DNA of 15,565 nt, taken from assembly GCA_009663005.1 (NCBI GenBank), contig CM018912.1, positions 3,916,868-3,932,432 of the forward strand. The letters are read 5' to 3'. Shown here piece after piece: positions 668 to 15,565 of this stretch (position 1 is the first letter of the stretch; every line of letters starts with the position of its first letter). The position numbers and the translations under genes are program-made. The notes under the pieces are model-generated. The model had not been told where the DNA came from. It searched no databases and saw nothing but the letters and a program-made list of their open reading frames with translations. The DNA comes from Actinidia chinensis. Its lineage: Eukaryota; Streptophyta; Magnoliopsida; Ericales; Actinidiaceae.

Positions 668-800
668 ACTAATCATATTGGAATTGGATAAGTAGCTTTT
701 TAGTTTTCTAGTGTGACCCTTCTTCTACGGTTCAAATAGGGGAAAAACAATTATTTGGGGTCGATAGGTCCCATATTAATGAATAGGTAACCAACTATAC

Positions 801-915
801 CTTCGGGCATCATGGTTACAAAATGTATGGGATCCGTTTGAACTTTGATTGCAGCGTGCATGGACGGTGCAATGTTCAGGATTGGTGACCCACCAAAAAT
901 CCTCGTTTTGCACCC
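801..915 (+). pseudogene. 5S-derived core 1 (array edge, E-like)
   Basis: First core of the array. The A box is degraded (TTGCAGCGTGC) and the C box carries an extra T (AGGATTGGTGACC). The 3' end CTCGTTTTGCACCC is closer to a real plant 5S 3' end than that of any other unit. The upstream spacer has TTGGGGTCGATAGG and GGTAACC, shared with the E units at 2378 and 7743. Confidence 0.8.
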
Positions 916-1118
916 GTTTCGACAGTTTTAACACTTATTCCTTTATAATAAAATAATTCTCTATGCGCAGTTATTTTTTATTTTACTTATAGAGCAGGCA
1001 ATTAAATATTAATATTAATCCGTTAACTTTAAACTTCACCCTTACTTGCGTTTGATAGGAGAAAGCGGATGATTGGAGGTCGATAGATCCTTATGATTTG
1101 AAAAGTGGACCAATATAC

Positions 1119-1229
1119 CTTCGCGATCATAATTGATACATTATGGATCCCCTTTGAACTTCGAGTTAAGCGTGCATGGACTGTTGCAATGTTCCGGATG
1201 GTGACCCACGGAAGTCCTCTTTTTGCAAC
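1119..1229 (+). pseudogene. 5S-derived core 2
   Basis: It starts 318 bp after core 1. The A box AGTTAAGCGTGC is intact; the C box lacks one G (GGATGGTGACC). The tail is CTCTTTTTGCAAC. TATGGATCC and the tail are C-like, but CTTCGCGATC at the start is not, so it is unclassified. Confidence 0.85.
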
Positions 1230-1437
1230 TTTTTTGTCAGATTTTTAACACTTATTGCTTTTCTAAAAACTTTCCTATGCTCTTTATTCTTTATTTACTT
1301 ACTGATTGCATGCATGAAACGATTATTTTGACCCGTTGAAGTTCACCCTTTCGCTAACGTCTGATTTCGATAGGGATAAAGCTGATGATTGGACGGTCGA
1401 TAGTTTCCATATGAATGAAAATTTGAACCAACGAGAC

Positions 1438-1554
1438 ATTCGCGCTCATATTGTACATTTTAATGGATCCCCTTTTGAAACTTCGAAGTTAAGCGTGCAT
1501 GGACGGGGTTCAATGTCCCAGATGGACGCCCCCGGGAAGTCCTCTTTTTACAAC
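1438..1554 (+). pseudogene. 5S-derived core 3
   Basis: The A box is intact. The C box region is broken (CAGATGGACGCC). The tail is CTCTTTTTACAAC. The start reads ATTCGCGCTCATA instead of CTTCGCGATCATA. Confidence 0.85.
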
Positions 1555-1757
1555 ATTTTTGTTTTATTTTACACTTATGCTTTCTAAAAAATTTTCTATG
1601 CGCAGTTGTTTATTTTTTATTACTTACGGATCAAAGCATGACACGATTGTTTTTAACCCGTTTTGAAGTCCCCGTTTTACGCTACGGTTCGATAGGTAGA
1701 AAGCGGTGAGTGGAGGTCGATAGGTCCATATGAAATAGAAAAGTTTAACCAACATAC

Positions 1758-1868
1758 TTTCGCGATCATATGGTACAATGTATGGTGATTCCAGTTGAAC
1801 TTCGAAGTTCAGCTGCATGGCGGGTGCAGTCATGATGATGACCCACCGGAAGTCCGCTTTTTACAAAC
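1758..1868 (+). pseudogene. 5S-derived core 4
   Basis: Both promoter blocks are damaged: AGTTCAGCTGC for the A box and ATGATGATGACCC for the C box. The C-box change looks like a GATG slippage. GTCCGCTTTTTAC replaces the usual tail. Confidence 0.8.
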
Positions 1869-2063
1869 AACATTACATATTGTGATTTTTAAACATGATG
1901 CTTTCGAAAAATTTCTATGCGCATTTATTTTATACTTACGGATGCAGCAATGAAACGATTAGTTTTTAACCCGTTGAAGTCCCCCTTCCGCTACGTTCGA
2001 TAGGGAGAAAGCGGATGATTGGAGTCTATAGGTTCCTATGAAAGAAAAGTTGAACCAACATAC

Positions 2064-2180
2064 ATTCGCGATCAAATGGTCAAATGTTATTGATCCCGTT
2101 TGAACTTCGAGTTAGCGTGCATGGACGGGTGCAATGTCATGATGGGTGACCCATCGGGACTCATCTTGTTTTTCAACACC
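2064..2180 (+). pseudogene. 5S-derived core 5
   Basis: The A box is one base short (AGTTAGCGTGC). The C box is ATGATGGGTGACC, followed by CATCGGG as in class B. The tail is disordered (TCATCTTGTTTTTC). Confidence 0.8.
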
Positions 2181-2377
2181 ATTTTTTTCGATTATTAAAA
2201 AACTTATGCTTTCTAAAAAATCCCTACGCGGCATTTATTTTTATTACTTAACGGATGCAGGCAATGAACGATTAGTTTTTAAACCCCGGTGAAGTTCCCC
2301 GTTACGCTGCGTTCGATAGGGAGAAAGCGGATTATTGGGGTCGATATGTCCATATGATTCAAAGGTGACCAACATAC

Positions 2378-2489
2378 CTTCGCGATCATATTGGTACAAT
2401 TTATGGATCCATTCGAACTTCGAAGTTACGCGTGCATAGACAGGTGCAAATGCGACCGGTGACCCGCGGGAAAGTCCCCTTTTTACACC
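2378..2489 (+). pseudogene. 5S-derived core 6, class E
   Basis: Class E marks: CATATTGGTACAA, ATTTATGGATCC, ATTCGAACTTCG and GCATAGACAGGTGC, all shared with the core at 7743. The C box is damaged (GCGACCGGTGACC). The next core follows only 180 bp later. Confidence 0.88.
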
Positions 2490-2557
2490 TTTTTGTCGAT
2501 TTTCAACACTTTGGAGGCCGATAGGTCCATATGAATTACAAGTGACCCAACATATAC

Positions 2558-2677
2558 CTTCGCGGTCTATGGTACTAATGTATAGATCCCGTGTTTAACT
2601 TCGAAGTTTAACATGCATGAACGGGTGAAATGTTAGGATGGGTGACACACACCGGGAAGCCCCCTTTTACAATACAC
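2558..2677 (+). pseudogene. 5S-derived core 7, class F
   Basis: Class F marks shared with the core at 7927: TATAGATCCC, ACATGCATGAACGGGTG and TAGGATGGGTGACAC. The A box is altered to AGTTTAACATGC. The spacer before it is compact; the one after it is full length. Confidence 0.87.
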
Positions 2678-13470: not shown

Positions 13471-13684
13471 TTATGGTCGATTTAACACTTATGCTTTCTA
13501 AAAAATTCCCTATGCGCCATTATTTTTATTACTTATGGATGCCCAGGCAAACAATGAAACGATTAGTTTTAACAACAATACCGTTGAAGTTCACCGTTAC
13601 GCTACGAGTTTTTCGATAGGAGGGAAAGAGGTATGATTATAGCGTCGATTAGGTCCATATGAATAGAAAAGTGCACCCAAATAC

Positions 13685-13818
13685 CTTCGCGATCATAATG
13701 GCATAAATGTATGATTCCGTTTGCAATTCGAAGCTCGAAGTTTTAAGCGTGCATGGACGGCGCTGCAAATGGGGGTTTTTTCAGAGGGTGACCCCATCGG
13801 GAAGTCCCTTTTAAACCC
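13685..13818 (+). pseudogene. 5S-derived core 43, class B with class A upstream spacer
   Basis: The core has ATGGCATAAATGTATGA and CATCGGG (class B). The spacer before it has GAAGTTCACC and GATTATAG, the class A type. CGAAG is duplicated before the A box, and GGGGGTTTTTT interrupts the C box. Confidence 0.84.
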
Positions 13819-14020
13819 TTTTGTGTCGATTTTTAACACTATGACTTTCTAAAAAATTCCCTTTGCCCGCATATTTTTATTATTTACGATGCAGGCCAAT
13901 GTGAAACGAGTAAGTTTAACCCGTTGAGTTCACCCCGGTACGTACGCCGTTCGATAGGGAGAAAGCTGGATGATGGAGGGTCGATAGGTACATATGAATA
14001 GAAAAGTTGAACCAACATAC

Positions 14021-14144
14021 CTTGGGATTCATAATGAGTACAAATGTATGGATCCCCGTTATTGCTGAACTTCGAAGTTAAGCGTGCTATGACGGGTGCA
14101 ATGATCAGGATGGTGACCTACCGGAACGTCCTCTTTTTGCAACC
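14021..14144 (+). pseudogene. 5S-derived core 44, class C
   Basis: CTTGGGATTCATAATG, TATGGATCCC, A box intact (AGTTAAGCGTGC), CTCTTTTTGCAACC tail. The C box is AGGATGGTGACC. ATTGC is inserted before GAACTTCG. Confidence 0.88.
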
Positions 14145-14355
14145 TTTTTGTCGATTTTTTAACAACTTATGCGTTCAAAAAAATTCCCTATGTGCATTTA
14201 TTTTTCATTATTATCGGATGCCAGGCCAATGATGAAACAAATAGTTTTAACCCGTTGAATTTCACCCGTTACGCGACGGATCGATAGGGGAATGAGGATG
14301 ATATAGGGCGATAGCCGTCCATATGAATAGTTGAAAAGTGCTGAACCAACATTAA

Positions 14356-14473
14356 CTTCGCTATCATAATGTTATAAATGTATGAATCCCGTTGAACTTA
14401 CGAAGTAAGCGTGCATGGAAGGGGGCAATGTCAAGATGGGTGACCCACCGGGGAAGAGTCCCTTTTTACACCC
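14356..14473 (+). pseudogene. 5S-derived core 45, class D
   Basis: TGTTATAAATGTATGAATCCC, C box AAGATGGGTGACC, CCACCGGGG and T5 ACACCC. The spacer after it is of the type that precedes A units, so a class C unit seems to be missing here. Confidence 0.88.
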
Positions 14474-14678
14474 TTTTTGTCGATTTTAACCACTTTATGC
14501 TTCTAAAAAATTCCTATGCGATTATTTGATTCTTATGGTGCAGGCAATCAATGAAACGATTAGTTTTTAACCCGGTTGAAGTTCACCCGTTACGTACGTC
14601 GATAAGCGAGAAGAAAAGAACGGGATGGATTATAGGTCGATAGTAGCGTCCATAGATAGAAAAGTTGAAAACAACATA

Positions 14679-14794
14679 CTTCGCGATCATAATGGTACAA
14701 ATGTATAGATCCGTTTGAACTTCGAAGTAAGCGTGCATGCCGGTTGCAATGTCAGGAGGAGGGTGGACCCACGAGAAAGTCCCCGTTGTACAAC
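14679..14794 (+). pseudogene. 5S-derived core 46, class A
   Basis: GGTACAAATGTATAGATCC, GTTGCAATG and CACGAGAAAGTCCCC. The A box lacks a T; the C box is AGGAGGAGGGTGGACC, with a repeated GGA. The spacer before it has an insert, GAAGAAAAGAAC (14610-14621). Confidence 0.87.
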
Positions 14795-14994
14795 TTTTTG
14801 TTGATTTTAACACTTAATGTGTACTAAAAAAATTCCCTTTGCGATTTATTTTTATACTTACGGATGGAGGGCAGGAAGGAACGATAGTTAAACCGTTGAA
14901 GTTCACCCGTTACGCTACGGTTCGATAGGGAGAAGCGTGATGAGGATGATTGAGGTCGATAGGTCCCTATGATAGAAAAGTTGAACCAACATAC

Positions 14995-15119
14995 CTTCGC
15001 GATCAGAATGGGCAATAATGTATGAATCCGTTTTTTGAACTTCGAAGTTAAGCGTGCGCTGGACGGGTGCATGTCAAGAGGGTTTGACCCACCGGGAAGG
15101 AAGTCCCCTTTTTACACCC
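14995..15119 (+). pseudogene. 5S-derived core 47, class B (D-like 3' end)
   Basis: GGGCAATAATGTATGAATCC is B-like, but CCACCGGG is D-like instead of CATCGGG. The A box is intact, the C box is AAGAGGGTTTGACC, and GGAA is duplicated before GTCCCC. Confidence 0.86.
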
Positions 15120-15330
15120 TTTTTGTCGATTTTTTTTAACAATATGCTTTCTAAAAAATTCCATTTGGCATAGTATTTTTATTATTACGGATGCAGGTGA
15201 TTTGGAAACGATTATTAGTTTTACCCGTGAGGTTCACCCGTTACGCTACGGTTCGCTAGGGCGAAGAGAAGCAAGTGGATGATTGGAAGGTCGATAGGGT
15301 AATATGAATATAAAGTAAACCAACCATTAC

Positions 15331-15453
15331 CTTGCGGATCAAATGAGTACAAAATGTATGGATCCCATTGAACTTCGAGTTTAAGAGTTGCATGGGACGG
15401 GTGCCAATGTCCAGGATGGGTGACCACCGGGGAAAGTCCTCTTTTTGCAAACC
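15331..15453 (+). pseudogene. 5S-derived core 48, class C
   Basis: Last complete core: CTTGCGGATC, TATGGATCCC, CTCTTTTTGC tail and intact C box AGGATGGGTGACC. The A box reads AGTTTAAGAGTTGC. The spacer after it is cut by the window end, so the array continues. Confidence 0.87.
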
Positions 15454-15565
15454 TTTTTGTCGATTTTAACACTTATGCTTTCTAACAAATTCCATATGTG
15501 CATTTATTTTTATTACTTATGGATGCAGGCAATGAAACGATTAGTTTTTAACCCGTTGAACTTCA

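Follow-up and report, generated by a model that had tools for sequence, protein, structure and literature searches.

In the genome assembly of Actinidia chinensis (638,422,350 bases in 1,499 contigs, designated here by C numbers), the window analysed, a stretch of 15,565 nucleotides (C25:3916868-3932432), carries a long tandem satellite whose units contain a core derived from 5S ribosomal DNA (rDNA). Judged from sequence comparisons, the 311-bp unit of this satellite family probably arose by fusion of two 5S-derived modules at box A of the internal promoter, namely a 5S gene (module A) and a copy lying in its spacer (module B), and was then amplified.

The array comprises 48 head-to-tail units, each with a 5S-like core, most of them about 306-313 bp long and with a period of 311 bp. 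A profile made from one clean unit and run over the window gave 49 matches, which correspond to 48 units because the match at 7598-7694 represents only the tail end of the unit that is broken at 7491-7597. In total, 44 units are near full length, three are short (~184 bp) and one is interrupted, the last two classes being tallied by hand from the coordinates. Tandem Repeats Finder returned periods of 306-317 bp, plus one 184-bp row that corresponds to the short units. The array reaches the last base of the window, and the DNA on both sides reads N. The elements on which the argument turns are the following.

714..15565, + strand: tandem array of 48 units with a 5S-derived core (profile search and Tandem Repeats Finder; left edge by eye)
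12419..12536, + strand: core of a clean unit, 5S-like, with the highest-scoring Rfam 5S match (40.2 bits)
12467..12481, + strand: box A (AGTTAAGCGTGCATG), agreeing with the host 5S consensus at 14/15 positions; putative fusion point of A-type and B-type sequence (from the sequence)
12497..12514, + strand: box C (AGGATGGGTGACCCACCG), agreeing with the host 5S consensus at 15/18 positions (from the sequence)

The derivation from 5S rDNA, already proposed in the initial annotation, was borne out by 13 matches of the Rfam 5S model to the window at E<=1, all on the + strand, of which the best (12419-12536) is the only one over the 38-bit gathering score. A search with nhmmer, using a canonical 5S query, gave 28 matches of 20.2-52.0 bits, and the host 5S unit aligns with the entire window unit far above shuffles. 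Four host loci hold 42 Rfam matches over the gathering score, at 39.8-99.4 bits; in the genome search the best host 5S-like copy reached 100.3 bits. The window consensus shares 87/119 positions with the consensus of the host A modules, in support of the earlier reading that the satellite is distinct from the host 5S sequences found. The closing stem of 5S is absent from the predicted fold of three window cores and present in that of the host A consensus, and the fold energies of these cores lie within 0.7 standard deviations (SD) of shuffles, as does that of the host A consensus; the unit core is not predicted to fold as 5S rRNA. A functional host 5S array was ruled out as the identity of the window by sequence (87/119 positions; 1/13 Rfam matches over the gathering score) together with the fold.

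The putative parents of the unit are found in the dimeric 5S-like arrays of the same genome. A genome search with the 5S family yielded 3,371 first-look candidates, of which 47 were scored and all 47 were over the cut-off. Arrays fetched from C5, C8, C11, C21, C22, C25 (391-401 kb), C28, C279 and C960 have units mostly of ~490-500 bp (~499), in which a full 5S gene (A) is followed, at a distance of 188 bp, by a partial spacer copy (B). In the dimer consensus of 498 positions, box A is at position 50 in module A and at position 238 in module B, giving the same step of 188. Module A scores up to 96.6 bits against canonical plant 5S, and B mostly matches canonical 5S only from about position 42. 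The identity of A and B averages 65%, and the first spacer stretch ends in 47 bp that resemble their second-spacer counterpart far above chance (0/2000 shuffles); B therefore looks like a 188-bp internal duplication. The comparison of A with the stretch before B gave p 0.0075, and the case is weak for reading B as the relic of a complete 5S that brought along a 5' half of its own.

Intact A copies are rare. Two 5S patterns, one of them a 63-base 5S consensus, each hit a single near-intact copy at <=2 mismatches, both on C21; intact host 5S genes may be missing from the assembly or unlike the search patterns. Between array consensuses, the A gene part differs at 40/943 positions and the spacers at 182/2413 (hand-summed), and the lower divergence of the gene part is as expected of a past gene. 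The array at C25:391000-400999 (C25a) stands apart in that 14 of its 15 Rfam-found A copies are 108-112 long instead of ~119; in the consensus of this array, box C of A has lost about 9 bp through a deletion that has spread across the array, and the B consensus retains the boxes.

The conversion of such a dimeric array into the satellite would have involved four steps. A 188-bp duplication within an ancestral ~311-bp 5S unit would have produced the ~499-bp dimeric unit, with a full 5S gene A and a spacer copy B starting near box A, after which B would have diverged between its boxes. The best supported of the proposed steps is an unequal exchange or a deletion involving both copies of box A, which lie 188 bp from each other; it would have joined the 5' half of the A gene to the 3' half of B and the spacer after B, restoring a 311-bp unit. 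Amplification would have followed; arrays of the unit are observed on C25 (the window), C18, C26, C600 and C1401, and unit types recur in multi-unit order in the window. The arithmetic agrees with this scheme, as a ~499-bp unit minus one 188-bp step gives 311 bp, the period of the window.

The position of the joint was examined by a breakpoint scan, in which every cut point k was tried, with 5' A joined to 3' B, and scored against the satellite unit. With the overall dimer consensus, the window consensus was best explained by a fusion at k=45-48 or 63-70 (score 106.5), full A plus spacer 2 scoring 96.5 and k=0 scoring 84.5; at k=50 the real score of 104.5 compares with at most -21.5 in 200 shuffles of the unit. 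The C18 satellite consensus gave the same fusion points and score. With single array consensuses the best points fell at k 42-76 in 6/8 (for C8b, among the ties listed), and four of the five real units tested fell at k 45-70. When single window units were fitted, the chimera was the best fit in 7/7. Of 145 modules from 15 loci of the other arrays (two of which overlap, so that some modules were counted twice), 131 fit A, 12 fit B and two fit a chimera; of these two, the one listed is a different deletion, and no fresh chimera within the dimeric arrays was convincing. The 5' half of the window unit resembles A 1-49, a similarity equalled in 0/2000 shuffles, and shows no such likeness to the stretch preceding B (p 0.24).

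The 3' half points to B. Among the 10 sites at which A and B differ within 5S positions 50-119, the unit carries the letter of B at five, that of A at two and another at three, and a simple model puts the chance of at least five B letters at about 3-6e-4. In a tree of array consensuses the unit groups with the B modules and canonical 5S falls among the A modules, with an ultrafast bootstrap (UFBoot) of 97, and the same grouping is recovered when C18, C26 and C600 are added (SH-like approximate likelihood ratio test/UFBoot 95.8/93). Taken singly, window modules share on average 0.620 identity with B and 0.585 with A. When 164 individual modules were placed in a tree, they resolved into three pure groups of 59 A, 61 B and 44 window modules, a grouping that by itself leaves the root unset.

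Several observations weigh against the fusion. The joint at box A beats an undivided unit by only ~10 score units, equal to roughly five sites, and the best point lies elsewhere for the C25a (k 37-39) and C11 (k 94-180) consensuses and, among the real units, for 12106 (k 175-180). When the spacer is counted along with the gene, the differing sites are not significant, with 9 B, 4 A and 9 other (p 0.27); at one of the two A-like 5S sites the shared letter is one by which A itself deviates from canonical 5S. The A and B consensus sequences themselves derive from degenerate arrays. The satellite is sister to the B modules and not nested within them, so that B could instead derive from a satellite-like monomer.

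These indecisive site counts and the sister position would also suit an account in which the satellite unit is an old, never-duplicated 311-bp 5S unit that degenerated, the dimeric A/B arrays having come later, possibly with B acquired by recombination of a real 5S unit with a satellite unit. The length of the satellite unit, which equals that inferred for the ancestral unit, speaks for it as well. It is nevertheless unlikely, since a plain pre-duplication unit would share the letter of B at five of the 10 differing 5S sites by chance only (~3-6e-4). A variant of it in which B descends from the satellite may be left standing by this evidence. The fusion of A and B remains the best fit, and of the two explanations offered in the initial annotation it favours amplification from a 5S variant with later homogenisation, the variant now being specified as an A/B chimera.

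The other explanation offered there was constraint on the promoter, on the grounds that in undamaged units the A and C boxes had been noticed as closer to plant 5S than the rest of the core and as standing at a near-native gap. The former was upheld modestly: the window consensus matches the host 5S consensus at 29/33 box positions and 58/86 remaining core positions (Fisher p 0.036), with p 0.088 when the 3' part alone is compared and p 0.38 with B. As to the latter, in a search for both boxes, in the Cassandra consensus form of PMC7215508 and 14-22 bp apart, 13/48 units had both with no more than one mismatch per box (gap 17-18 in 11/13), including 8/48 without any mismatch (gap 18 in five, 17 in three); the other 35/48 units have damage beyond one mismatch in one box or both, or a gap outside 14-22 bp. 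The same settings gave 0 matches in the reverse complement and 0 in 20 shuffles. The box A-box C part of the satellite unit carries GTGCAATGTCAGG letters. Under the fusion model, the kept look of the boxes is mainly due to the joint lying at box A and to the presence of the boxes in both A and B, and the middle part looks diverged because it derives from B.

Continued use of boxes A and C by TFIIIA or RNA polymerase III (Pol III), which would keep them intact and is compatible with a chimeric origin, is nonetheless a possibility of low probability. Its support comes from the sister arrays and from comparisons between consensuses. The 48-bp box A-C stretch is identical between the consensuses of the window, C18, C26 and C600 (0/48 differences in 6/6 pairs), and between the window and C18 25/253 other positions differ as against 0/48 in this stretch (p 0.019, one comparison). 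Across 107 sister-array units, the boxes vary at 291/3438 (0.085), compared with 949/8885 (0.107) in the other core (p 0.0002) and 1901/18971 (0.100) in the spacer (p 0.0045), in a Fisher test that counts inherited variants many times; taken by array, the boxes vary less than the other core in 5/5 stretches, with p<0.05 in three. The closer match of the boxes to host 5S points the same way.

Within the window, by contrast, conservation is flat. Variation is 0.086 in box A, 0.132 in box C, 0.087-0.157 in other core regions and 0.099 in the spacer, giving p 0.71 for boxes versus other core and p 0.15 versus spacer, an outcome that the initial annotation had itself named as refuting its reading and that tells against constraint. 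When the two-box pattern was slid round the unit, its true place was unexceptional, ranking 208/304 in the window, 70/301 in C18, 131/304 in C26 and 44/304 in C600. The longest unchanged run, 58 bp, covers box A-C, but random placement gives a run of at least 58 bp in 8% of trials. In 62 units of the dimeric arrays the within-array substitution rate is 0.083-0.120 in every region, boxes, gene and spacers alike. The C25a array argues in the same direction, as its A copies (14/15 about 9 bp short) and A consensus lack part of box C, and an array can therefore persist without an intact box C in A. Taken together, all these tests are suggestive only, with constraint weakly favoured in the sister arrays and between consensuses and disfavoured in the window. 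More speculative still, and improbable on present sequence evidence, is a scenario in which the split promoter of the satellite, created by fusion of two different 5S-derived modules at box A, would still function in several arrays, and from it Pol III would make a ~105-nt non-ribosomal RNA, stopped by the T5 run in the core, that might aid spread or the setting up of heterochromatin. Three elements of the clean unit may bear on transcription.

12391..12396, + strand: TATGAA at -28 relative to the core, close to where the host 5S unit has TATAAG; candidate upstream element (from the sequence)
12525..12529, + strand: T5 run within the 3' end of the core; candidate early Pol III stop (from the sequence)
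12536..12540, + strand: T5 run at the end of the core, in the same place as the T-run after host 5S (from the sequence)

A tandem array of Cassandra, a long terminal repeat (LTR) retroelement with a 5S promoter in its LTR, was rejected as very improbable: the accessible parts of PMC7215508 describe tandem arrays of its 5S-bearing LTRs, those of PMC10853983 describe boxes that are kept while the stretches between them vary, and boxes A and C are about 18 bp apart in the window as in Cassandra (a gap found in any 5S), but the satellite spacer is homologous to the spacers of host 5S units and there is no primer-binding site in the array. For the methionine primer-binding site (<=1 mismatch), the search found none in the array or in the 28 fetched loci L001-L028 (five of them all N; the satellite loci L029-L058 were not scanned). 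One near-match, with one mismatch to the methionine transfer RNA (tRNA) primer-binding site, lies at 369-382 on the minus strand, outside the array; with CA just before it on that strand, it is perhaps the edge of an unrelated LTR element beside the array.

The satellite family extends to other contigs. A whole-genome search with one unit gave at least 203 matches at E<=0.001, the best listed having 91% identity (C26), and the matches listed fall on C26, C600, C1401 and two places of C18. Among the 30 loci that the search returned, 107 units have more than 260 matched model columns, and unit spacing is mostly ~302-345 bp, with short forms of ~184-190 and ~220 bp and some irregular steps. C18:4289357-4298542 and C1401:1-2377 carry ~220-bp units and then units that restart near model position 40; the ~220-bp form is another length variant produced by internal deletion.

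The damage seen in the window's units needs separate consideration. Sixteen right-block units of three clear types, each compared with its type consensus, contain 170 substitutions (36 of them transitions) and 229 insertion/deletion (indel) events in 4,686 aligned bases, with 123 deletion events that take out 134 bases. This spectrum, rich in one-base indels, has an indel/substitution ratio of 1.35 and a transition/transversion ratio of 0.27. The dimeric 5S arrays, treated in the same way (eight stretches, seven contigs, 62 units), gave 0.09-0.36 and 1.43-2.49, and the sister satellite arrays are intermediate (0.57-0.95 and 0.48-0.95). The window also alternates between clean and dirty stretches, the share of recurrent 14-mers ranging from 0.06 to 0.77 per 400 bp. 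Given the one-base indels and the low transition/transversion ratio relative to the dimeric arrays, the window damage is read as mostly assembly error, from unpolished long-read sequence. The noisy spectra of the sister satellite arrays weigh against this reading, and there error and real indels are therefore not fully separable. Gene decay was ruled out by the error spectrum as the main cause of the window indels, and decay of the array is accordingly a doubtful premise.

The remaining features of the window concern length variants, an interruption and higher-order structure.

2335..2510, + strand: short (~184-bp) unit, without about 125 bp of spacer (profile search)
7491..7597, strand not assigned: 107 bp of other sequence, T-rich with a long poly-T at its end, that breaks one unit (from the sequence)
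7696..8062, + strand: two further short (~184-bp) units (profile search and Tandem Repeats Finder)
8600..15565, + strand: right block of several unit types in higher-order arrangement, with a 9-unit repeat of ~2.8 kb (unit-type lags)

The T-rich stretch at 7491-7597 could be a small insertion. Unit-type lags peak at 9 in the right block (1/2000 shuffles as high), and a 5-unit higher-order repeat that had been guessed by eye is unsupported. In the left block, even lags are mostly above odd ones, with a peak at lag 10 (6/2000 shuffles as high). Whole-unit lag identities showed little, and one exact 236-bp repeat has its copies 5.7 kb apart. In the left flank, at 420-680, a short stretch (tcagaNccCattcRacaNctaag...) recurs about three times by eye.

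Satellites derived from 5S are already known as a class. PLsatB of the Plantago lagopus B chromosome was amplified from sequence including 5S rDNA fragments, according to the accessible parts of PMC6210368 and PMC6410184, and resembles the present family as a plant satellite arisen by amplification of 5S-containing sequence; PLsatB is B-chromosome-specific there, whereas the present family occupies several large contigs (C18, C25, C26), and those parts make no mention, for PLsatB, of a gene fused with a spacer copy. In frogs, PcP190 combines a 120-bp part like the 5S transcribed region with a variable part, and recombination with 5S rDNA has been proposed (PMC11675491, PMC4201667, as far as accessible). 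As presented in these sources, constraint on the conserved part is debated there too, but PcP190 is an animal repeat with a ~190-bp unit, both parts of which appear as transcribed in RNA reads. A centromeric repeat of the fish Hoplias malabaricus, as cited in the accessible parts of PMC12692304 and PMC4201667, is likewise tandem and derived from 5S rDNA, the difference being its animal host. Cassandra shares tandem 5S-promoter units with conserved boxes and variable stretches beside them (PMC7215508, PMC10853983, in part; a related paper on terminal-repeat retrotransposons in miniature, seen in its accessible part, is PMC10886601), and differs in that the present unit is 5S rDNA with its own spacer and no primer-binding site was found in it. 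No description of a satellite formed by fusing a 5S gene with its own spacer copy was found in the literature searched, which mostly did not cover subscription papers.

If the fusion is correct, the kiwifruit satellite would offer a readable path from gene array to satellite, in which a unit duplicates internally, its spacer copy diverges, a promoter box common to both copies serves for exchange, and the product is amplified. It would also illustrate that promoter boxes can seem selected when both parents had them in common and the joint lies there, and that an unpolished assembly can mimic decay in a satellite.

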